From assembly GCF_018228765.1 (NCBI RefSeq), contig NZ_CP073695.1:2170001-2234000 (forward strand): 64,000 nucleotides of DNA. The letters are read 5' to 3'. Shown one piece after another: positions 6,385 through 37,095 of the stretch (its first letter is position 1; each line of letters opens with the position of its first letter). The stretch comes from Halorubrum ruber. GTDB taxonomy: Archaea; Halobacteriota; Halobacteria; Halobacteriales; Haloferacaceae. Both the position numbers and the translations under genes were made by a program. Below the pieces are notes generated by a model. That model had not been told where the DNA came from. It did no database searches and saw only the letters and a list, made by a program, of their open reading frames with translations.

Positions 6385-6876
6385 CTACCGGGACGCGGCG
6401 ATCCGGGAGAGGAGGAAGCCGACGACCGCCGACGCGGCGCCCACCGCGACCGCGACCGCGCCGGCGAGGGCAAGCGGAGCGGTGAACGCGGCCGCGGCCG
6501 GGGCGCCAGCGGCGAACGGGAGGACGTACGGCTCCGGTCCGATCCCCCGGAGCAGCGTCCCCGCGAACGGTCCGTAGGCGAGCAGTATCGTCGGGAACAC
6601 GCCGCCCCCGGTCGCTGCGAAGGCGATCGCGCCGATCGCCGTCACCGCGGCGAGGGCGCCGGTGGTCTCCGCGCTCCCGACGCCGACCGCGGCCGTCGCG
6701 TCGAAGGCGACGTACGACAGCGCGAAGCCGACCGCGCTCCACACCGTCGCCCGCTCGAAGCCGGACTCACCGAGAGCTATCTGTCGGAGCGCCGCGCGCC
6801 GGGACTCGGCCGCGTCGTCTCCGCTCGCGTCGCCGTCCATCGCGCCCGCCGCCTTCGTCGCGTCGCCGCCCGTCAT
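6385..6876 (-). CDS. Small integral membrane protein, function unknown
   Basis: 163 residues: an acidic soluble N-terminus of about 45 residues, then roughly four hydrophobic segments rich in Ala, Gly and Val, ending LLSRIAASR. No family motif was recognised. Its ATG overlaps the stop of coaD by 4 nt (ATGA), so the two are very likely translated from one message, although nothing in the sequence links it to coenzyme A synthesis. Confidence 0.6.
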   Translation of the reverse strand: MTGGDATKAAGAMDGDASGDDAAESRRAALRQIALGESGFERATVWSAVGFALSYVAFDATAAVGVGSAETTGALAAVTAIGAIAFAATGGGVFPTILLAYGPFAGTLLRGIGPEPYVLPFAAGAPAAAAFTAPLALAGAVAVAVGAASAVVGFLLSRIAASR

Positions 6877-28682: not shown

Positions 28683-28945
28683 GCCGTGGCGCGTGCCTCC
28701 GAGTGGCCGCCGAAGGCGGCCGCGAGGAGCACGCGCGAGGGAGTCAGTCGCCGGAGCGAAGCGGAGGCGACTGACGAGGCTGGGGAGGCGTGAGGTGCTG
28801 GGCGGAGCGGTGCGGGGTGGGATCCGAAGGGGCAGCCGCGAGGCGGGCGTAGACGACGCAAGGACCGCAGGAACGAGCGGAGCGAGTGACGAGGACCGCA
28901 GCGAGTGTACGCCCGCCTCGCGGCTGGGGCTTCGGCGGTGTTCGT
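28683..28945 (+). repeat. Structured repeat copy B, folded core
   Basis: Same landmarks as copy A in compact form. The first hairpin is GCGCGTGCCTCC with GGAGCACGCGC; the second is GTCAGTCGCC with GGCGACTGAC; the block GAGGCTGGGGAGGCGTGAGG and a GGGGCAG block follow. The closing helix pairs 28833-28851 with 28908-28926 without mismatch (19 bp) and differs from copy A at two positions by matched changes. It starts about 40 nt after the methyltransferase stop. Confidence 0.82.
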
Positions 28946-29150
28946 GTCGATCGGCCCCTTATAAATAGAGATGTATTGCCTCGCGGCTGGGGCTTCGGCG
29001 GTGTTCGTGTCGATCGGCCCCTTATAAATAGAGATGTATTGCCTCGCGGTTGGGGCTTCGGCGGTGTTCGTGTCGATCGGCCTTTTATAAATGGAGATGT
29101 ATTGCCGAGCGGCTGGGGCTTCGGCGGTGTTCGCGTCGATCGATGTCGAT
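28915..29150 (+). repeat. Copy B tail: four 63-bp tandem units
   Basis: Units start at 28922, 28985, 29048 and 29111, exactly 63 bp apart. The first three are nearly identical (one changed base in the GGCTGGGG motif and small changes next to TTATAAAT), unlike the diverged 57-bp units of copies A, C and D, so this array expanded recently. Each of the first three units holds a TTATAAAT box. Confidence 0.88.
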
Positions 29151-29167
29151 GAATCCGGTCGTTTGCC

Positions 29168-30619
29168 TCAGTCCTGTGTCCGCCCCTGTGGCTCGGCGCC
29201 GCGGGTCGGGTCCGGAGAGTCCTCGTCGTGGCCACCCTCCCCGCCGTGGTCGTGGTCGCTATGATCGTGATCGCCGTGGTCGTGGGCGTCGTTCGACCCC
29301 GTTTCGCCGAGGACCTCGGCGCCTTCCCCGTCGATCATGTCCATGTTCTTCAGGTTGTCGCGTTCCTCGAAGTCCTCGACGGCCTCCATCACGTCGGCCT
29401 GCGTGATCGTCATCCGGTCCTCGGTGAGCGCGCCGAGGACGGCCTCGCGGAGCACCATCCGGAGGTCGGAGCCGGTGAGCCCGCTGGTCCGGTCGGCGAC
29501 CTCCTCGGGGTCGAAGTCGGCGATCTTCATCTCCTTGGTCACGACGCGGAGGATGTCCGCGCGCATGTCGCGGTCCGGCTTGGGGAAGTTGACGATCTCG
29601 TCGAACCGGCGCCACGCGGCGGCGTCGAGCTGGTCCGGGTGGTTCGTCGCACCGATGAGGAGCACCTCGTCGCGCACGAGCGACACCTCGTCGATCGACT
29701 TCAGCAGGGTGTTGACCGCGCGCTTCAGGGCGGCGTGCTCGTCCGAGCGGCGGGTCTTCGCCACCGAGTCGAACTCGTCGATGAAGAGGATACAGGGGGA
29801 GAGCCGCTTGGCGACCTCGAAGCTCTTCTCGACGTTCTTCGACGTCTCGCCGAGGTACTGGCTCGTGATCATCGAGAGCTTCACCTCGACGAACGGGAGC
29901 CCGAGCTCGTGGGCGAGCGCGCGCGACACGGTCGTCTTCCCGGTGCCCGGCGGGCCGACGAACAGCAGCTTCCCGATCTCGCGGAGGCCGATCTCCGCGA
30001 GGTACTCGCGGTGTTCGATCGCCTTGACGATCTTCTGGATCTCACCCTCCTGATCGCCGGTCAACACGAGGTCGGCCAGCGTCGTCTCGATCTCCTCGGG
30101 CGCGCGGACGTTGACGAGGTCGAGCATCTCCCCGTCCTCGTCCTCGTCGAAGTACTCGGAGAGCAGCGCGTCGATCCAGACGCGGTCGGCCTGGACCGGC
30201 CGCACGTCGTCTCTGGCCTCCTCGCGGGTCACCGGCGCCGTCAGGTCCTCGGCCGCCTCCATCGCGGCGACGAGCGTCGGGTTCCCGGCGAGCCGGTCGT
30301 CGTCCGCGTGGTCGCGGTACCACTCCAGTCCCATCGCGGGCTGGGTCAGGGAGATCTCGCCGGAGAACTCCGTGCGTTGGGTGAAGAGGAGGTCGGAGAC
30401 CGCGTCCCACGGCCGCTCGACGCCCGTGGCGGTGCGGGTGGTCTCGTCGGTCGCCTTCAGCGGTCGCTCCACGCCGCCGGGGGCGTCGTCGGCGGCGTCG
30501 GCCGACCAGAACACCTGCCGGAAGCGCGGAGGCAGGTCGTTCTCGTCGAGGTCGCGGTCCTGCGTGTAGAAGTGCGTCGTCAACACGAACTCGACGACGT
30601 CGAGCGCCGGGTCACTCAT
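29168..30619 (-). CDS. AAA+ ATPase with His-rich C-terminal tail
   Basis: 483 residues. The AAA+ core sits in the second half: Walker A VGPPGTGKTTVSR, Walker B ILFIDEFDSVAK, sensor 1 LLIGATNHP, an arginine finger in AAAWRRFDEIV, and a sensor 2 helix SGLTGSDLRMVLREAVL. The N-terminal 200 residues are family-specific and may bind substrate; there is no protease domain. After residue 450 the chain becomes a run of His, Asp and Gly, similar in style to the MoaB N-terminus. I place it among CDC48/FtsH-like ATPases; the cellular role is not known. Confidence 0.82.
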   Translation of the reverse strand: MSDPALDVVEFVLTTHFYTQDRDLDENDLPPRFRQVFWSADAADDAPGGVERPLKATDETTRTATGVERPWDAVSDLLFTQRTEFSGEISLTQPAMGLEWYRDHADDDRLAGNPTLVAAMEAAEDLTAPVTREEARDDVRPVQADRVWIDALLSEYFDEDEDGEMLDLVNVRAPEEIETTLADLVLTGDQEGEIQKIVKAIEHREYLAEIGLREIGKLLFVGPPGTGKTTVSRALAHELGLPFVEVKLSMITSQYLGETSKNVEKSFEVAKRLSPCILFIDEFDSVAKTRRSDEHAALKRAVNTLLKSIDEVSLVRDEVLLIGATNHPDQLDAAAWRRFDEIVNFPKPDRDMRADILRVVTKEMKIADFDPEEVADRTSGLTGSDLRMVLREAVLGALTEDRMTITQADVMEAVEDFEERDNLKNMDMIDGEGAEVLGETGSNDAHDHGDHDHSDHDHGGEGGHDEDSPDPTRGAEPQGRTQD

Positions 30620-30725
30620 CCGCGCGAAGTAGCGCCGGGACGCGGTTAAGAGCGTCGAAGCGCCGGCGGGCGCGGGCGGACGCCGTATCGAATCCTTATT
30701 AGCGCTGGTCCGCGACGTACCGCGC

Positions 30726-31340
30726 ATGAGTTCCGAAGACGCGGCCGCGCCGGGAGACCCCGTCGGCGACGGCGCGAGCGAGACGGGCGACACGAGCGAC
30801 ACCGACCACGAGAACGCGCTTCAGGACGTCATCGCCGTCGACCCCGACGACGTCGCGCAGGGCACGGTGAACCGGCTCGACGCGCACACCGGCGACGGGA
30901 TCCGCCACCGCGCGTTCACCTGCCTCGTCTTCGACACCGACGGCCGGATCCTGCTCGCACAGCGCGCGCCGAACAAGCGCCTCTGGGACGGCCACTGGGA
31001 CGGCACGGTCGCCTCCCACCCCGTCGAGGGGCAGTCCCAGGAGGAGGCAACCGAGCAGCGCCTCGAGGAGGAGCTCGGCATCTCGCCCGACCAGTACGAC
31101 GACCTCCGCGTGACGGACAAGTTCGAGTACAAGCGCTACTACCCCAACGAGGGCGTCGAGTGGGAGGTGTGCGCGGTGCTGAAGGTGACCCTCGACGACA
31201 CCTCGCTCGACCCGGACGACGACGAGATCGGCGGCATGCTGTGGGCCGACTACGACCACCTCCACGAGAACCCCGCGCTGTACCGGCAGCTCCGTCTCTG
31301 CCCGTGGTTCGAGATCGCGATGCGGCGCGACTTCTCCTGA
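30726..31340 (+). CDS. idi: Isopentenyl-diphosphate delta-isomerase, type 1 (Nudix)
   Basis: Interconverts IPP and DMAPP for archaeal lipid and carotenoid synthesis. 204 residues with the Nudix box in GHWDGTVASHPVEGQSQEEATEQRLEEELGI. The catalytic cysteine of the E. coli enzyme, in its VCGHP motif, is replaced by Ala96 in TVASHP; the catalytic glutamate is kept as Glu147 in EWEVCAV. The haloarchaeal type-1 sequences I recall show the same substitution. TATA-like CTTATTA at about 30695-30701 supports the ATG at 30726. Confidence 0.88.
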   Translation: MSSEDAAAPGDPVGDGASETGDTSDTDHENALQDVIAVDPDDVAQGTVNRLDAHTGDGIRHRAFTCLVFDTDGRILLAQRAPNKRLWDGHWDGTVASHPVEGQSQEEATEQRLEEELGISPDQYDDLRVTDKFEYKRYYPNEGVEWEVCAVLKVTLDDTSLDPDDDEIGGMLWADYDHLHENPALYRQLRLCPWFEIAMRRDFS

Positions 31341-31439: not shown

Positions 31440-32195
31440 ATGACCGTCGTCGCCCTGCTGGCGAACCCGCCCCGCGAGGGGCTCGTCGGAACCGCGATCG
31501 CCGAGTCGACGCCGCTGTCGCCCGCCGAGGCGGCCGACCTCTACGAGGCGCAGTTCCGCGACGCCGTCCTCGCGGTCGAGCGCTCGGGCGGCGAGCTCCT
31601 CGTCAACTACCCCGACGAGGAGCAGTTGCCCGCCGAGCATCGGACCGAGACGAGCCCGGAGGCCGAACTGCGGACGCTCGTCGCGGACACCCTCGGCGGC
31701 ACCGACGAGGTGCGGTTCGAGCGGCAGGTCGGCTCCTCGTTCGGCGCGCGCGCCGGCAACACCGTCACGCACCTGCTGCGCGAGGAGGGCGCCGACTCGG
31801 TCGCGGTCGTCACCCCGACCGCGCCGCTGCTCTCGCGGACGATCGTCGACTCGGCGGCGATGAAGCTCCGGACGACCGAGGTCGTCCTCGGCCCCTCCTC
31901 GAACGGCCGGGCGTACTACGCCGGCTTCACCGAGCCGATCGACTTCGACGGCGCGTTCGAGGCGCCGGCGCTGCCGACGCTCGCGGAGCGCGGCCGCGAC
32001 GCGGACCGCTCCGTCGACTTCGTGGAGCCGTCGCCCTCGCTGGAGACGGGCGACGACCTGCTCGACGTGGTGCCGAACCTCCGGGCGCGGTTCGCCGCGG
32101 AGCGCGTCGTGCCGGACTACACGGCCGCGTTCGTCCACGAGAAGGGGCTGGACGTGGTCGTCGAGGACGGCGAGGGGCGGCTGGTGCGGGAATAA
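31440..32195 (+). CDS. DUF2064-like (GT-A type) protein
   Basis: 251 residues. The middle segment SVAVVTPTAPLLSRTIVDSAAMKLRTTEVVLGPSSNGRAYYAGF matches the layout of the DUF2064 / glycosyltransferase-A superfamily family, but the usual acidic metal-binding residue of the D-x-P motif is not obvious, so it may not be a working transferase. The N-terminus (VVALLANPPREGLVGTAIAESTPLSPAEAADLYEAQ) fits the same family. No membrane segments. Confidence 0.6.
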   Translation: MTVVALLANPPREGLVGTAIAESTPLSPAEAADLYEAQFRDAVLAVERSGGELLVNYPDEEQLPAEHRTETSPEAELRTLVADTLGGTDEVRFERQVGSSFGARAGNTVTHLLREEGADSVAVVTPTAPLLSRTIVDSAAMKLRTTEVVLGPSSNGRAYYAGFTEPIDFDGAFEAPALPTLAERGRDADRSVDFVEPSPSLETGDDLLDVVPNLRARFAAERVVPDYTAAFVHEKGLDVVVEDGEGRLVRE

Positions 32196-32239
32196 AAAGC
32201 AGCACACCGTTTGATCACCAGTCGCCACACCGACCCCGA

Positions 32240-33466
32240 TTACAACATATCGTCAGTCGTCTCCGCCGTCCGGAGCTCCCCTAAGGTCGTGTACCGCAGC
32301 GCCTGCGGATAGCGCGTCTCGTAGGGGATCGGATCTTCGAGTTCGTACAGCGAGCCCGGTTTGAAGATGATGACTTTCTTATCCTCCGCGATTGCGCCCC
32401 GATCCTTGTACTCTAACGGCTCACGCATCAGATCCGCCTGTTCAGGCGACACGACTCGCTCGACTTCGGCGATATATTTCACCTGTCGAACGTCACCAGT
32501 GACGTACATCGCCACGTATTCGAACTCGCGTCCGACCCGAACGAACCCCCACGCCTCGTTCTCTTTTAAAAATGGAAGTCCAGACTCTCTAGTCGGGAAT
32601 ACCGCCACCGTTGAGTCCGGATCTCCGTCGATGTCTCGGCGGCGGATCGTTCCAGCGATCTGATTTTTGACCGGTTCGAGATGTCGGTTGTCGGGACCAT
32701 CCGCAGAACCGGTTTCGTCACTGATGTGAATGTCGTCATCAGCCGTGGGTGGATTGTCGCCAGAGGGTGGACCGTTTTCTGTCTCTCCAACGAACTGGCG
32801 CTGCTCACGTAACAAAGACACGAGCCCCTGAACGAACTCTCTCGACTGCGCCTGAAGGTCGATCGGTAACTCGCCGACTTCATCGGTAACCGCGCTCGCG
32901 ACGGAATCGGTGACCGTCGATTCGTTCTCGCTTAAATATCGGATCGTCCGATTTGTTTCCGCGACTTGTTCGGCGATCTCCGCTGACTTTCCCGAGCGGA
33001 TCGACTCTTTCGTGAGGAGTTCGAGAACGCCCGGACGCTCGCTGAGATCTTCGAGGCTGAACTGTACGACCGACATCTCTTCGCCGCCGTTACGGCGGCG
33101 ATCCTTCGTCAGGACCTCGAATGATTTTCCGTTGGTCAGAATTCCCCAATCGACATCCAACTCTTGCCGCATGTAGCTTCGTAACTGGCGGACTTCGTCG
33201 TCTGAGAGCGTCGATCGGACGGGTTTTGCTTCGACGAAGACGACCGGCGAGTCGCCGACGAGGAGGGCGTAGTCGACGTGCGTACTGCCCGACGCCATCG
33301 GAACGTTGTACTCCAGTGCGACCTCCGTCGAGTAGAGGTCCCACCCGAGGAGTTCGAGGAAGGGCTGGATCAGCTTCACCTTCGTGTTCTCCTCGTCCAT
33401 CTGCGGCGATGCTTCGATGAGTCCCCGACATCGGTCGACGTACTCATCGATCTCGTTCCGATCCAT
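32240..33466 (-). CDS. Solo HsdR_N-like restriction-type nuclease domain protein
   Basis: 408 residues. N-terminal 130 residues match the type I restriction R-subunit N-terminal domain: ENTKVKLIQPFLELLGWDL, then the PD-(D/E)xK core with Asp65 in HVDYALLV, Glu79 and Lys81 in VVFVEAKP, then YMRQELDVDWGILTNGKSFEVL. There is no helicase motor, methylase or specificity subunit nearby. The C-terminal half (about residues 280-408) looks like a separate folded domain of unknown function. Base composition is visibly lower in GC than the neighbours, and the gene lies next to tRNA-Ser, both signs of horizontal arrival. TTTTAAAA about 30 nt upstream supports the ATG at 33466. Confidence 0.75.
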   Translation of the reverse strand: MDRNEIDEYVDRCRGLIEASPQMDEENTKVKLIQPFLELLGWDLYSTEVALEYNVPMASGSTHVDYALLVGDSPVVFVEAKPVRSTLSDDEVRQLRSYMRQELDVDWGILTNGKSFEVLTKDRRRNGGEEMSVVQFSLEDLSERPGVLELLTKESIRSGKSAEIAEQVAETNRTIRYLSENESTVTDSVASAVTDEVGELPIDLQAQSREFVQGLVSLLREQRQFVGETENGPPSGDNPPTADDDIHISDETGSADGPDNRHLEPVKNQIAGTIRRRDIDGDPDSTVAVFPTRESGLPFLKENEAWGFVRVGREFEYVAMYVTGDVRQVKYIAEVERVVSPEQADLMREPLEYKDRGAIAEDKKVIIFKPGSLYELEDPIPYETRYPQALRYTTLGELRTAETTDDML

Positions 33467-33563
33467 TGAGGTGTGATTTATGCCGTTGCCTTTTAAAATA
33501 CCGCTGAGTCGGCTTCCACCGATCCGACACCACTTAGTCGACCGACGCCGAGCGGTGATGTGT

Positions 33564-33648
33564 GGTGGGATGGCAGAGCGGCCTATTGCGCCTGCCTTGA
33601 AAGCAGGTAGCCTCACGGCTTCCTGGGTTCGAATCCCAGTCCCACCGT
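33564..33648 (+). tRNA. tRNA-Ser (anticodon UGA)
   Basis: Acceptor stem GGTGGGA (33564-33570) pairs with TCCCACC (33641-33647) and the discriminator is G. The anticodon stem-loop is CCTGC-CTTGAAA-GCAGG with anticodon TGA; a long variable arm (TAGCCTCACGGCTT) marks a class II serine tRNA; the T arm is CTGGG-TTCGAAT-CCCAG. CCA is not encoded. Downstream 33652-33679 forms a GC-rich hairpin followed by TTT, a possible terminator. Confidence 0.95.
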
Positions 33649-33960
33649 AACGCGTCCGGCGCACTTCGCGCCGGACGCGGTTTGTGCGGGATTCGAAGCC
33701 TGCGAGTCGCAGCGCCCGAGCGGTGCGAGGTGTGAGCAACGCGAACACCTCGAAAGCGAGCGGCGAAGCCGCGAGCAGCGAGGGCGACCGTCTCGCAGGC
33801 TTCGAATCCCAGTCCCACCGCTTCTCCGCGAACGCTAATGAGCAGAGAGCGGTAGCTGGGATTCGAATCAGAGAGCGACCGAAGGGAGCGACCGTGGTTC
33901 GAATCCCAGTCCCACCGTGTCGAGCGCGGATTCGAAGCAGAGAGCGGCAGATATCTCGAT
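33649..33960 (+). repeat. Reiterated tRNA-Ser 3' end with inverted partners
   Basis: The last 20 bases of the tRNA-Ser gene (T-loop half plus acceptor strand) recur exactly at 33801-33820 and 33898-33917. Each recurrence has an inverted partner: 33688-33706 is the exact reverse complement of 33792-33810 (19 nt), and 33856-33867 of 33898-33909 (12 nt), so each unit can form a long hairpin ending in a tRNA 3' end. There is no credible gene here. Attachment-site remnants or a hairpin repeat that mimics tRNA ends are both possible. Confidence 0.75.
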
Positions 33961-34168: not shown

Positions 34169-34768
34169 ATGAGCTACGAACTCGATCCGCTTCCGTACGA
34201 TTACGACGCGCTGGAACCCCACATCTCCGAGCAGGTGCTCGAATGGCATCACGACACCCACCATCAGGGGTACGTCAACGGCTGGAACTCCGCCGAAGAG
34301 ACGCTCGAAGAGAACCGTGAGTCCCACGACTTCTCTTCGTCCGGCGGCGCCATCCGCAACGTGACCCACAACTCCTCGGGCCACATCCTCCACGACCTGT
34401 TCTGGCAGAACATGTCGCCGGAGGGCGGCGACGAGCCCGAGGGTGAGCTGGCCGACCGCATCGCAGAGGACTTCGGCTCGTACGAGGCCTGGAAGGGCGA
34501 GTTCGAGGCGGCGGCCTCCGCGGCCAGCGGCTGGGCGCTTCTGGTGTACGACACGTTCTCGAACCAGCTCCGCAACGTCGTGGTCGACAAGCACGACCAG
34601 GGTGCGATCTGGGGCGGTCACCCGATCCTCGCGCTGGACGTCTGGGAGCACTCCTACTACCACGACTACGGTCCGGCTCGCGGCGAGTTCGTCGACAACT
34701 TCTTCGAGGTCGTCGACTGGGAGGAGCCGTCGGATCGCTACGAGCAGGCCGTCGAGCTGTTCGAGTAA
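34169..34768 (+). CDS. sod: Superoxide dismutase (Mn/Fe type)
   Basis: Dismutes superoxide. 199 residues: MSYELDPLPYDYDALEPHIS, metal-ligand histidine in EWHHDTHHQGYVNGWN, second in ILHDLFWQNMSP, and the Asp/His ligands in LALDVWEHSYYHDYG. The ATG at 34169 gives the normal family N-terminus. CATTATCTTTAA at about 34118-34129 is a candidate TATA region with a short leader. Monocistronic; repeat copy C follows. Confidence 0.95.
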   Translation: MSYELDPLPYDYDALEPHISEQVLEWHHDTHHQGYVNGWNSAEETLEENRESHDFSSSGGAIRNVTHNSSGHILHDLFWQNMSPEGGDEPEGELADRIAEDFGSYEAWKGEFEAAASAASGWALLVYDTFSNQLRNVVVDKHDQGAIWGGHPILALDVWEHSYYHDYGPARGEFVDNFFEVVDWEEPSDRYEQAVELFE

Positions 34769-34858: not shown

Positions 34859-35080
34859 GTTTATAAGTGATTGCTGGTGAGTCAGCGGTGAACTCCACTG
34901 AATCTCAGCTGCTCGTTTATAAACAGCTGATTGCGGATCGACGGAAAATGGCTCCAAATCTCCAGTTGCTCGCTTATAAATATTCGACTACGGATCGGCG
35001 GAGAACACCCTCAAATTCGCAGTTACTCGCTTTTAAACACTCGACTACGGATCGGCGGAGGACACCTCCAAAGCCCCAGC
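34859..35080 (-). repeat. Copy C tail: 57-bp tandem units
   Basis: The element reads on the minus strand. CGGATCG recurs at 34934, 34991 and 35048, an exact 57-bp period, each unit ending with a TTTATAAA- or TTTTAAA-like box. A weaker fourth unit reaches 34859, about 90 nt after the sod stop. Confidence 0.8.
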
Positions 35081-36612: not shown

Positions 36613-37095
36613 TCAGGCGTTCCGCTTCGTGTAGTGTTCCAGCGCGGACTCGATCGACGAGAGGTCCGCGTTCACCCGGCTGTCCGCGACGCGCATGAAT
36701 CCGGGCGTGTACGACGACGAGTAGTCGAAGATGCGGTTGACGGCGCGCTTGGGCGCGGAGACGGCGCTGAAGTCGGTTACCGTGTACACCCGCGTGGTCG
36801 GGAACGCGGTCCAGAACGTGCCGCTGGCCCAGCGGTCCTCGTCCGCAAACGCCTCGCCGACGCGGCCGGTCGCGACGTACTCGTCGTCCGCGTAGAACAG
36901 CAGGAGGTCGCCCGCCGCCATCTTCTCGAACGTCGACCCGTTGCCGCTGTCGTCGTCGACGGCCCACAGGCGGGCCTCGTCGAGGTCCGCGAGGGGCTCG
37001 GGCCGGTCCGGGTAGTCGGTGAGGTCGACGGCGGACCGGACCGTTCGGTCGAAGTTCTCCGGGTCGATCGGGACCAGGAAGACGTTCTCGCTCAT
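36613..37095 (-). CDS. EVE/PUA-like domain protein
   Basis: 160 residues. MSENVFLVPIDPENFDRTVRSAVDLTDY, then ARLWAVDDDSGNGSTFEKMAAGDLLLFYADDEYVATGRVGEAF, resembles the EVE/PUA-like fold that reads modified nucleobases and often accompanies McrBC-type restriction systems. No nuclease or AAA+ partner is adjacent. A role in sensing modified DNA or RNA is inference. Confidence 0.55.
   Translation of the reverse strand: MSENVFLVPIDPENFDRTVRSAVDLTDYPDRPEPLADLDEARLWAVDDDSGNGSTFEKMAAGDLLLFYADDEYVATGRVGEAFADEDRWASGTFWTAFPTTRVYTVTDFSAVSAPKRAVNRIFDYSSSYTPGFMRVADSRVNADLSSIESALEHYTKRNA

Follow-up and report, generated by a model that had tools for sequence, protein, structure and literature searches.

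A haloarchaeal family of HsdR_N-type nucleases with exchangeable, predicted base-reader domains recurs at tRNA genes

What does a nuclease domain of the type I restriction kind do when it is joined to an unfamiliar C-terminal half beside a tRNA gene, and was it brought there by a mobile element? The gene that raises these questions encodes 408 amino acids at 32240..33466, on the minus strand of a 64,000-nt stretch (the window) of a 3.02-Mb haloarchaeal chromosome, and its ATG start codon (33466-33464) corresponds to the same start in 15 aligned relatives. The first-pass annotation had described its base composition as unlike that of the flanking genes, and the figures agree: GC is 57.3% and GC3 68.9%, whereas four other genes of the window have GC of 69-74% and GC3 of 92-98%, with the low-GC dip extending beyond the gene to about 35 kb. 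Among eight relatives measured, GC was clearly below that of the relative's own flanks in seven and about equal to it in one. Judging from sequence, the TATA-like TTTTAAAA at 33491..33498 (minus strand), 24-32 nt ahead of the start codon, is probably the gene's own leaderless promoter; similar boxes lie upstream in four of the 12 relatives compared (L033, L034, L037, and L043). The nearest relatives by name belong to Halorubrum (L033, and L043 on a Halorubrum distributum contig).

Pfam, structural matches, and conservation all assign residues 1-158 (32993..33466, minus strand) to an HsdR_N-type PD-(D/E)xK nuclease domain. Two Pfam families match residues 32-132 above their cut-offs, HSDR_N_2 at E 6.7e-10 and HSDR_N at E 2.7e-07, and the catalytic residues D65 (33272-33274), E79 (33230-33232), and K81 (33224-33226) are followed on the same minus strand by a QxxxY motif at residues 94-98, which is a trait of HsdR. 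These catalytic residues and Q94xxxY98 are invariant in 16 of 16 aligned full-length sequences, the window protein counted in. Across a broader set of 76 N domains, D65 is kept in 74 and E79 and K81 in 73 each, every position of the triad and the Q94/Y98 pair being retained in 72-74. When an AlphaFold2 model of the protein was compared with solved structures using VIA, the nuclease half matched DrdV (Z 9.0), BpuSI (7.2), and HsdR (6.8). Pfam and conservation thus bear out the type I restriction kind of domain, with the three active-site residues, that had been proposed from the letters. In the model, DSSP places a helical stretch at residues 160-223 (32798..32989, minus strand), possibly a dimer or coupling element, followed by a variable, low-confidence linker at residues 224-265 (32672..32797, minus strand; pLDDT blocks of 25-53), delimited by alignment and domain comparison. 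This linker is the point past which relatives exchange their C-terminal domain.

The nuclease was also said to stand alone, without motor, methylase, or specificity subunit, and it does. Pfam detected no helicase family (SF2 motor) in the 408-aa chain and no restriction-modification subunit, HsdM, or HsdS among eight neighbouring proteins, which comprise NUDIX, DUF2064, Sod, AAA, UbiE-type methyltransferase, and DUF5827 proteins and two without a match; there is no integrase among the eight. To place the gene in its family, we used 45 loci carrying both domains, drawn from the loci in hand and deduplicated by the last 300 residues, hence a subset of the known copies. Two of these are partial (L048 and L062), one (L042) comes from a 3-kb contig recorded as bacterial, probably through mis-binning, and L049, broken into several ORFs, was left out. 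Across the 45 loci, no methyltransferase or other constant partner was found. PADLOC matches of the N domain (mad2 and type IIG) look like generic nuclease-domain matches and were rejected. An AAA gene at 29168-30802, which PADLOC matches to IetA, was likewise rejected as a partner: Pfam assigns it to the plain AAA ATPases, and 19 of 20 same-genus loci contain it (the sequence of L108 stops short of that position), which marks it as a core gene in our reading.

The C-terminal half is a different matter: its sequence is indeed unfamiliar, but the predicted fold is that of the PUA superfamily, already familiar from base readers. The whole-protein AlphaFold2 model, built from 16 sequences, is weak (mean pLDDT 66.9, pTM 0.42; N-domain blocks 45-75), while the ten-residue pLDDT blocks of residues 271-408 mostly reach 74-92, with two at 51 and 63. 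Of the best 50 VIA matches, 31 align within residues 262-406, including 13 titled YTH, several ASCH, and two DrmA. The top-ranking ones are 2p5d (Z 8.7), a Zymomonas ASCH protein (ZmASCH, 8.4), the Pho92 YTH domain (8.1), and PH1033 (7.9), and lower ones include the Staphylothermus McrB N-domain 6n0s (6.1) and TRIP4 (6.0); the tool itself warns that a Z of about 8.7 is near the level where a match may reflect a common arrangement. Entry 2p5d, like 2hd9/1wmm, 1zce, and 2gbs, we take to be an EVE domain. Foldseek ranked ASCH structures first and second for the window model (best E 4.8e-03), and returned zero rows at E <= 0.001 both here and for the sister-reader model described below. Taken with the pLDDT profile and the alignment, these matches lead us to predict a PUA-superfamily barrel (ASCH/EVE/YTH) at residues 282-403 (32258..32623, minus strand), undetectable by sequence. 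Pfam returned 0 families at E 1 for the window's own C-terminal domain, and over 18 members of the domain its sole match was a phage holin model in two (best E 0.12), none being EVE, ASCH, or YTH. A PDB chain profile search with the domain alignment gave a best E of 0.14, not to a PUA protein; a solved-structure sequence search with the whole protein and alignment A2 found no match, and Pfam, PADLOC, and NCBIfam searches with the whole protein found no PUA-superfamily match.

Conservation within this domain would suit a base pocket. An alignment of 18 diverse copies shows no variation at Y321, Y392, or A401 and hardly any at W306, G307, F308, or F368, making W306, G307, F308, Y321, F368, and Y392 a candidate pocket. 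The pocket reported for the EVE domain of VcaM4I is P24/W82/Y130 (PMC7897488, in part), and an aromatic set like that of the window protein, judged from the residues themselves, would fit it. The domain is not confined to this nuclease. It occurs behind a different N-terminal region at L137:296-1462(-), L138:6009-7214(+), and L140:5372-6526(+), and as a short stand-alone protein in several genomes. The N-domain profile recognises this region in none of the three, and no Pfam family passed the cut-off in the two that were scanned (L137 and L138); by eye, the region in all three looks like another PD-(D/E)xK domain. Separately, two PUA-type relatives, L136:5504-6871(-) and L143:12533-13939(-), carry an extra C-terminal stretch of ~80 residues that appears winged-helix-like by eye.

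Family matches at E <= 1e-5 occur in 187 of 391 genomes of the class, and among them L021-L026 show 74-79% identity in the first 230-255 residues followed by an unrelated C-terminus. Five of these six share a second C-terminal domain type, which is also that of the window genome's own paralogue (L002, G000:C1:1750266-1751345, minus strand), a protein 44% identical to the window protein over residues 1-223 and ending in a SeqA-like domain; PUA-like and SeqA-like types therefore coexist in one genome. A third C-terminal type occurs at L021:1501-2559(+), where the nuclease half is 79% identical to the window's, and the same gene is found in L128. In a tree of 76 N domains (43 PUA, 31 SeqA, and 2 other), made by a quick method and with several long branches, placing all three labels takes 14 changes and the PUA label alone 13, of which 5 are forced by well-supported branches. 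L051, one of the two labelled other, has a SeqA-like domain in the following ORF, so a frameshift has probably broken up what was a SeqA type. The C-terminal domain has thus been exchanged repeatedly on one nuclease, and a module that is swapped on one enzyme and also turns up on a second is most readily understood as the part that sets specificity.

A name for the sister domain is suggested by its predicted structure. Of five models built from nine copies, with pLDDT from 83.8 to 40.5, the best (83.8, pTM 0.78) was aligned with 228 chains, five of which reach Z >= 2, and the four entries displayed are all SeqA: 1lrr (Z 8.7, rmsd 2.9 over 100), 3fmt (8.4), 1iu3 (8.3), and 3sk7 (7.9). Foldseek ranks 1-4 are also all SeqA, at E 0.1-0.76. 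By sequence, hhalign against E. coli SeqA finds its best stretch at residues 145-167 with P 0.032 and a probability of 1.6%, compared with P of 0.096-0.78 for seven other E. coli proteins, and the Pfam SeqA family (PF03925) has 0 matches across the window genome, although that genome holds a SeqA-type paralogue. The sister reader is accordingly predicted, on its model, to have the SeqA C-terminal DNA-binding fold. SeqA binds hemimethylated GATC, as stated in the available parts of PMC5867850 and PMC12707154.

Taken together, these results point towards a single-protein, modification-dependent (type IV-like) restriction endonuclease with exchangeable readers, a reading to which we assign a probability of roughly 60%. 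The PUA-superfamily-like domain would bind DNA carrying a modified base, most likely flipped into the aromatic pocket, and the HsdR_N-type PD-(D/E)xK domain, joined to it via the helical stretch and flexible linker, would then cut nearby, probably as a dimer and without ATP. Such an enzyme would destroy modified viral or plasmid DNA, and the family would switch target by exchanging PUA-like and SeqA-like readers on the same nuclease while spreading as one-gene cargo at tRNA genes. In its favour, two unrelated folds on one nuclease are both known in modified-base readers, and we also count the lack of a constant partner, the patchy presence, and the low GC. Counted against it are the missing sequence link between the C-terminal domain and PUA proteins, the weak full model, the near absence of sequence likeness to SeqA, and the lack of methyltransferase avoidance described below. 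Modification binding, cutting, dimerisation, and defence are what we infer for this protein, so that the stand-alone defence nuclease suggested by the first-pass annotation, a reasonable idea, is sharpened here to a predicted modification-dependent enzyme.

If the readers recognise a common modification, genomes that carry the gene might be expected to lack the corresponding methyltransferases. The list of PUA-type genomes holds at least 36 among the matches listed (the broken G014 was left out); m5C methyltransferases (PF00145) occur in 17 of these 36 against 166 of 355 others, and D12-family methyltransferases (PF02086) in 14 of 36 against 132 of 355. There is hence no signal of avoidance of either family by PUA-type genomes in this comparison, and no clue to the target. 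The window genome itself has one m5C-type and two D12-family methyltransferase genes; provided that such enzymes are active, the reader is unlikely to recognise m5C or m6A in every context, which leaves a particular sequence context or another modification. The same lack of avoidance is compatible with a nuclease whose C-terminal domain reads unmodified DNA sequence-specifically, the exchanged parts being target-recognition domains and self-protection coming from absence of the site. C-terminal exchange suits any specificity module, and both folds, PUA-like and SeqA-like, bind nucleic acids in general. We nevertheless consider this explanation unlikely, since both folds independently indicate base readers, and a genome of 2-5 Mb would have difficulty retaining a toxic, sequence-specific enzyme without a protecting methyltransferase.

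We turn now to the second question, whether the gene was brought by an element. In the window, the nuclease gene lies between a 251-aa DUF2064 protein gene (31440..32195, plus strand), a core gene present in 52 of 52 genomes of the genus, and tRNA-Ser(TGA) (33563..33648, plus strand), which is 97 bp from the nuclease start and has its 5' end towards the nuclease gene; a Fe/Mn superoxide dismutase gene (34169..34768, plus strand) follows past the tRNA. In 20 same-genus loci, the gap between the DUF2064 gene and tRNA-Ser is empty in 13 (50-86 bp), holds another gene in five (322-326 aa, read by eye as a CPBP-type membrane protease), holds the nuclease in one (G111), and is unscorable in one (L111). 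Because the site is empty or otherwise filled in most of these loci, the nuclease is an accessory gene at a variable spot. The attachment-like repeats that had been linked to this tRNA do exist, as 22-nt copies of the tRNA-Ser 3' end at 33799..33820 (one mismatch) and 33896..33917 (exact), both on the plus strand, but the tRNA stands between them and the nuclease gene, which they do not flank. Extra tRNA-Ser 3'-end copies also occur downstream of the tRNA in 10 of 18 same-genus loci that have the tRNA and lack the nuclease, and they are therefore not the nuclease's attachment sites; the fragments at 33799-33917 are perhaps traces of other integrations at tRNA-Ser. A candidate attachment remnant near 32208-32230, at the gene's left edge, was rejected, because 112 of the 2752 windows on the same strand and 49 of 2000 shuffled sequences reach its score.

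Two further features of this region may be recorded. Similar short repeats (translated TPPKPQPRG-like) occur at 28744-29235 and about 34900-35060, ~6 kb from each other, with the nuclease region between them. At 36616-37095 (minus strand), a 160-aa protein without a Pfam match is present in 18 of 20 same-genus loci (one match is cut by the locus end), and by eye its GDLLLFY..ATGRV stretch recalls stand-alone EVE-like proteins.

At the level of the family, an association with tRNA genes is supported. Around the 45 loci, 17 tRNAs fall in the 27,000 bases within 300 bp, three in the 26,797 bases at 300-600 bp, and eight in the 507,701 bases at 600-8000 bp, so that 20 are seen within 600 bp where the 600-8000 bp flanks would predict 0.85; as the loci are related, a nominal P is not to be taken literally. 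A tRNA gene lies within 600 bp at 19 of the 45 loci and none that near at the other 26. The 19 loci occupy eight tRNA sites: Leu-TAG (8 loci), Ser-TGA (3), Ala-CGC (2), and Val-CAC (2), with one locus each at Gly-CCC, Phe-GAA/Ala-GGC, Pro-CGG, and Arg-TCG. The gene is on the 3' side of the tRNA in 16 of the 19, the exceptions being the window, L043 (same genus, same site), and L150. Two loci place the gene between a tRNA end and a further copy. At L136, another tRNA-Leu copy lies past the nuclease gene, and at L134 the nuclease gene alone (~1.5 kb) lies between a tRNA-Gly 3'-end copy at +98 and a longer copy at +1623, comprising about 60 nt of the tRNA plus downstream sequence. The L134 unit, from tRNA-Gly(CCC) at 6491-6563 to about 8190, is an integrase-less, one-gene candidate for a minimal mobile cassette.

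The family is thus recurrently located at tRNA genes and patchily present, and the suggestion that an element brought the gene finds support for the family, with its many tRNA genes, mostly 3'-side positions, and two bracketed copies, but not for the window copy, whose repeats are unlinked to it. The first-pass annotation had named homologues in one conserved housekeeping context with normal composition as the contrary picture; what we find is that the most widely shared true neighbour (antisense ORFs aside) occurs at 9 of 45 loci. The spread over sites is not fully random, as eight loci have a neighbour in common at the tRNA-Leu(TAG) site, seven with the tRNA within 600 bp and one (L039) with it at 2.1 kb. 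By eye, an integrase-like gene lies within 8 kb at 6 of the 45 loci. Plasmids yielded 22 records with a match, including two near-full-length relatives, under the name "type I restriction enzyme HsdR N-terminal domain-containing protein", which conceals the C-terminal half. Sixteen phage records have distant matches to the nuclease half, 0 of them covering 80%, and a viral-contig scan requiring exact peptide words found no relative. Some copies are broken: L048/L020 is split, and L049 and G014 contain stops.

This distribution could also suggest a selfish nuclease of a homing-like kind, which would drive its own insertion next to tRNA genes and use the C-terminal domain to bind those genes or att sites. 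The proximity at 19 of 45 loci, the 3'-side bias, and the one-gene unit between tRNA-Gly copies would all suit such a role, yet close relatives sit at eight different tRNA sites, and 26 of the 45 loci lack a tRNA within 600 bp. SeqA-type genes, moreover, lie within 600 bp of a tRNA at 2 of 10 loci, and among the loci scanned they adjoin Gly-CCC (about 90 bp), Ala-CGC (360 bp), and Leu-GAG within that distance and Ser-TGA at 1 kb. As some of these are the same tRNA species, the site does not simply follow the reader, and we judge a homing role improbable.

PUA, YTH, and ASCH domains often bind RNA, and several of the YTH structures matched by VIA hold m6A RNA, so the protein might instead be an RNA-directed nuclease, acting for example on tRNA or modified RNA as an abortive-infection effector with an RNA-binding PUA-like domain. 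This is highly improbable in our estimation, because the nuclease half is closest to the DNA-cutting domains of HsdR, DrdV, and BpuSI and the sister reader resembles SeqA, a DNA reader. That the gene is what remains, without function, of a decayed type I or type IIG enzyme, as the missing motor, methyltransferase, and specificity subunits and the few broken copies (L048/L020, L049, and G014) might suggest, is barely credible given 16 aligned full-length sequences, 55-94% identical to the window's and invariant in the catalytic residues, and the promoter-like box upstream.

The modification-dependent endonuclease that we favour has several known counterparts. A PUA-superfamily sensor fused to a PD-(D/E)xK or HNH nuclease is the plan of known modification-dependent restriction enzymes (MDREs), as described in parts of PMC7897488 and PMC7641849, so that a fusion of a PUA-type reader with a PD-(D/E)xK nuclease is already known. 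These enzymes (EVE-PD(D/E)XK, EVE-HNH such as VcaM4I, and the SRA-type MspJI) share the one-chain nuclease and reader without a methyltransferase partner (available parts of PMC7641849, PMC7897488, and PMC12707154), whereas the haloarchaeal nuclease is of the HsdR_N/DrdV kind and its reader has no Pfam match and is exchanged with a SeqA-like domain. HsdR of type I systems has the same N-terminal PD-(D/E)xK domain with QxxxY, but the haloarchaeal protein lacks the helicase motor, has no HsdM or HsdS that we could find, and carries another C-terminal half. The type IIL/IIG enzymes DrdV and BpuSI match the nuclease half highly by fold (Z 9.0 and 7.2), and the haloarchaeal chain differs in having no methyltransferase or target-recognition domain. 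The sister reader shares its predicted fold with SeqA, residues 145-167 of which give the best local match, but it is archaeal, fused to a nuclease, and without the SeqA N-terminal domain or any Pfam SeqA match in the window genome. The m6A-dependent, winged-helix (wH)-type enzymes DpnI and HHPV4I/HhiV4I follow the same reader-plus-nuclease plan with different reader folds, and the wH-like stretch seen by eye in L136 and L143 may be compared with theirs; HHPV4I comes from a haloarchaeal virus (PMC11037411 and PMC10101028, in part).

Among the matches listed in open-licence PMC literature, a weak test, there was no description of a SeqA-nuclease fusion or an HsdR_N-PUA-type fusion. Four features are new as far as the literature was searched: a nuclease of the motorless HsdR_N type in a fusion of this sort, a reader that has switched repeatedly between two folds, a SeqA-like reader attached to a nuclease, and a cassette-like habit at tRNA genes. 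The fuller proposition, that haloarchaea possess one-protein, motorless, modification-dependent enzymes in which a common HsdR_N nuclease swaps unrelated reader folds, including a recruited SeqA-fold methyl reader, and which move as integrase-less one-gene cassettes between tRNA genes, we advance only tentatively, and on balance would not expect it to hold in every part.

If true, the family would represent an archaeal counterpart of target-recognition-domain swapping, for modified bases. The repertoire of m6A readers, given as PUA-type and wH domains and called surprisingly limited in the available part of PMC11037411, in which "SeqA" occurs 0 times, would be joined by a SeqA-type domain. Isolated reader domains could be turned into reagents to detect modified DNA, and carrier hosts would be expected to restrict some haloviruses or shuttle plasmids on account of the modification of their DNA.
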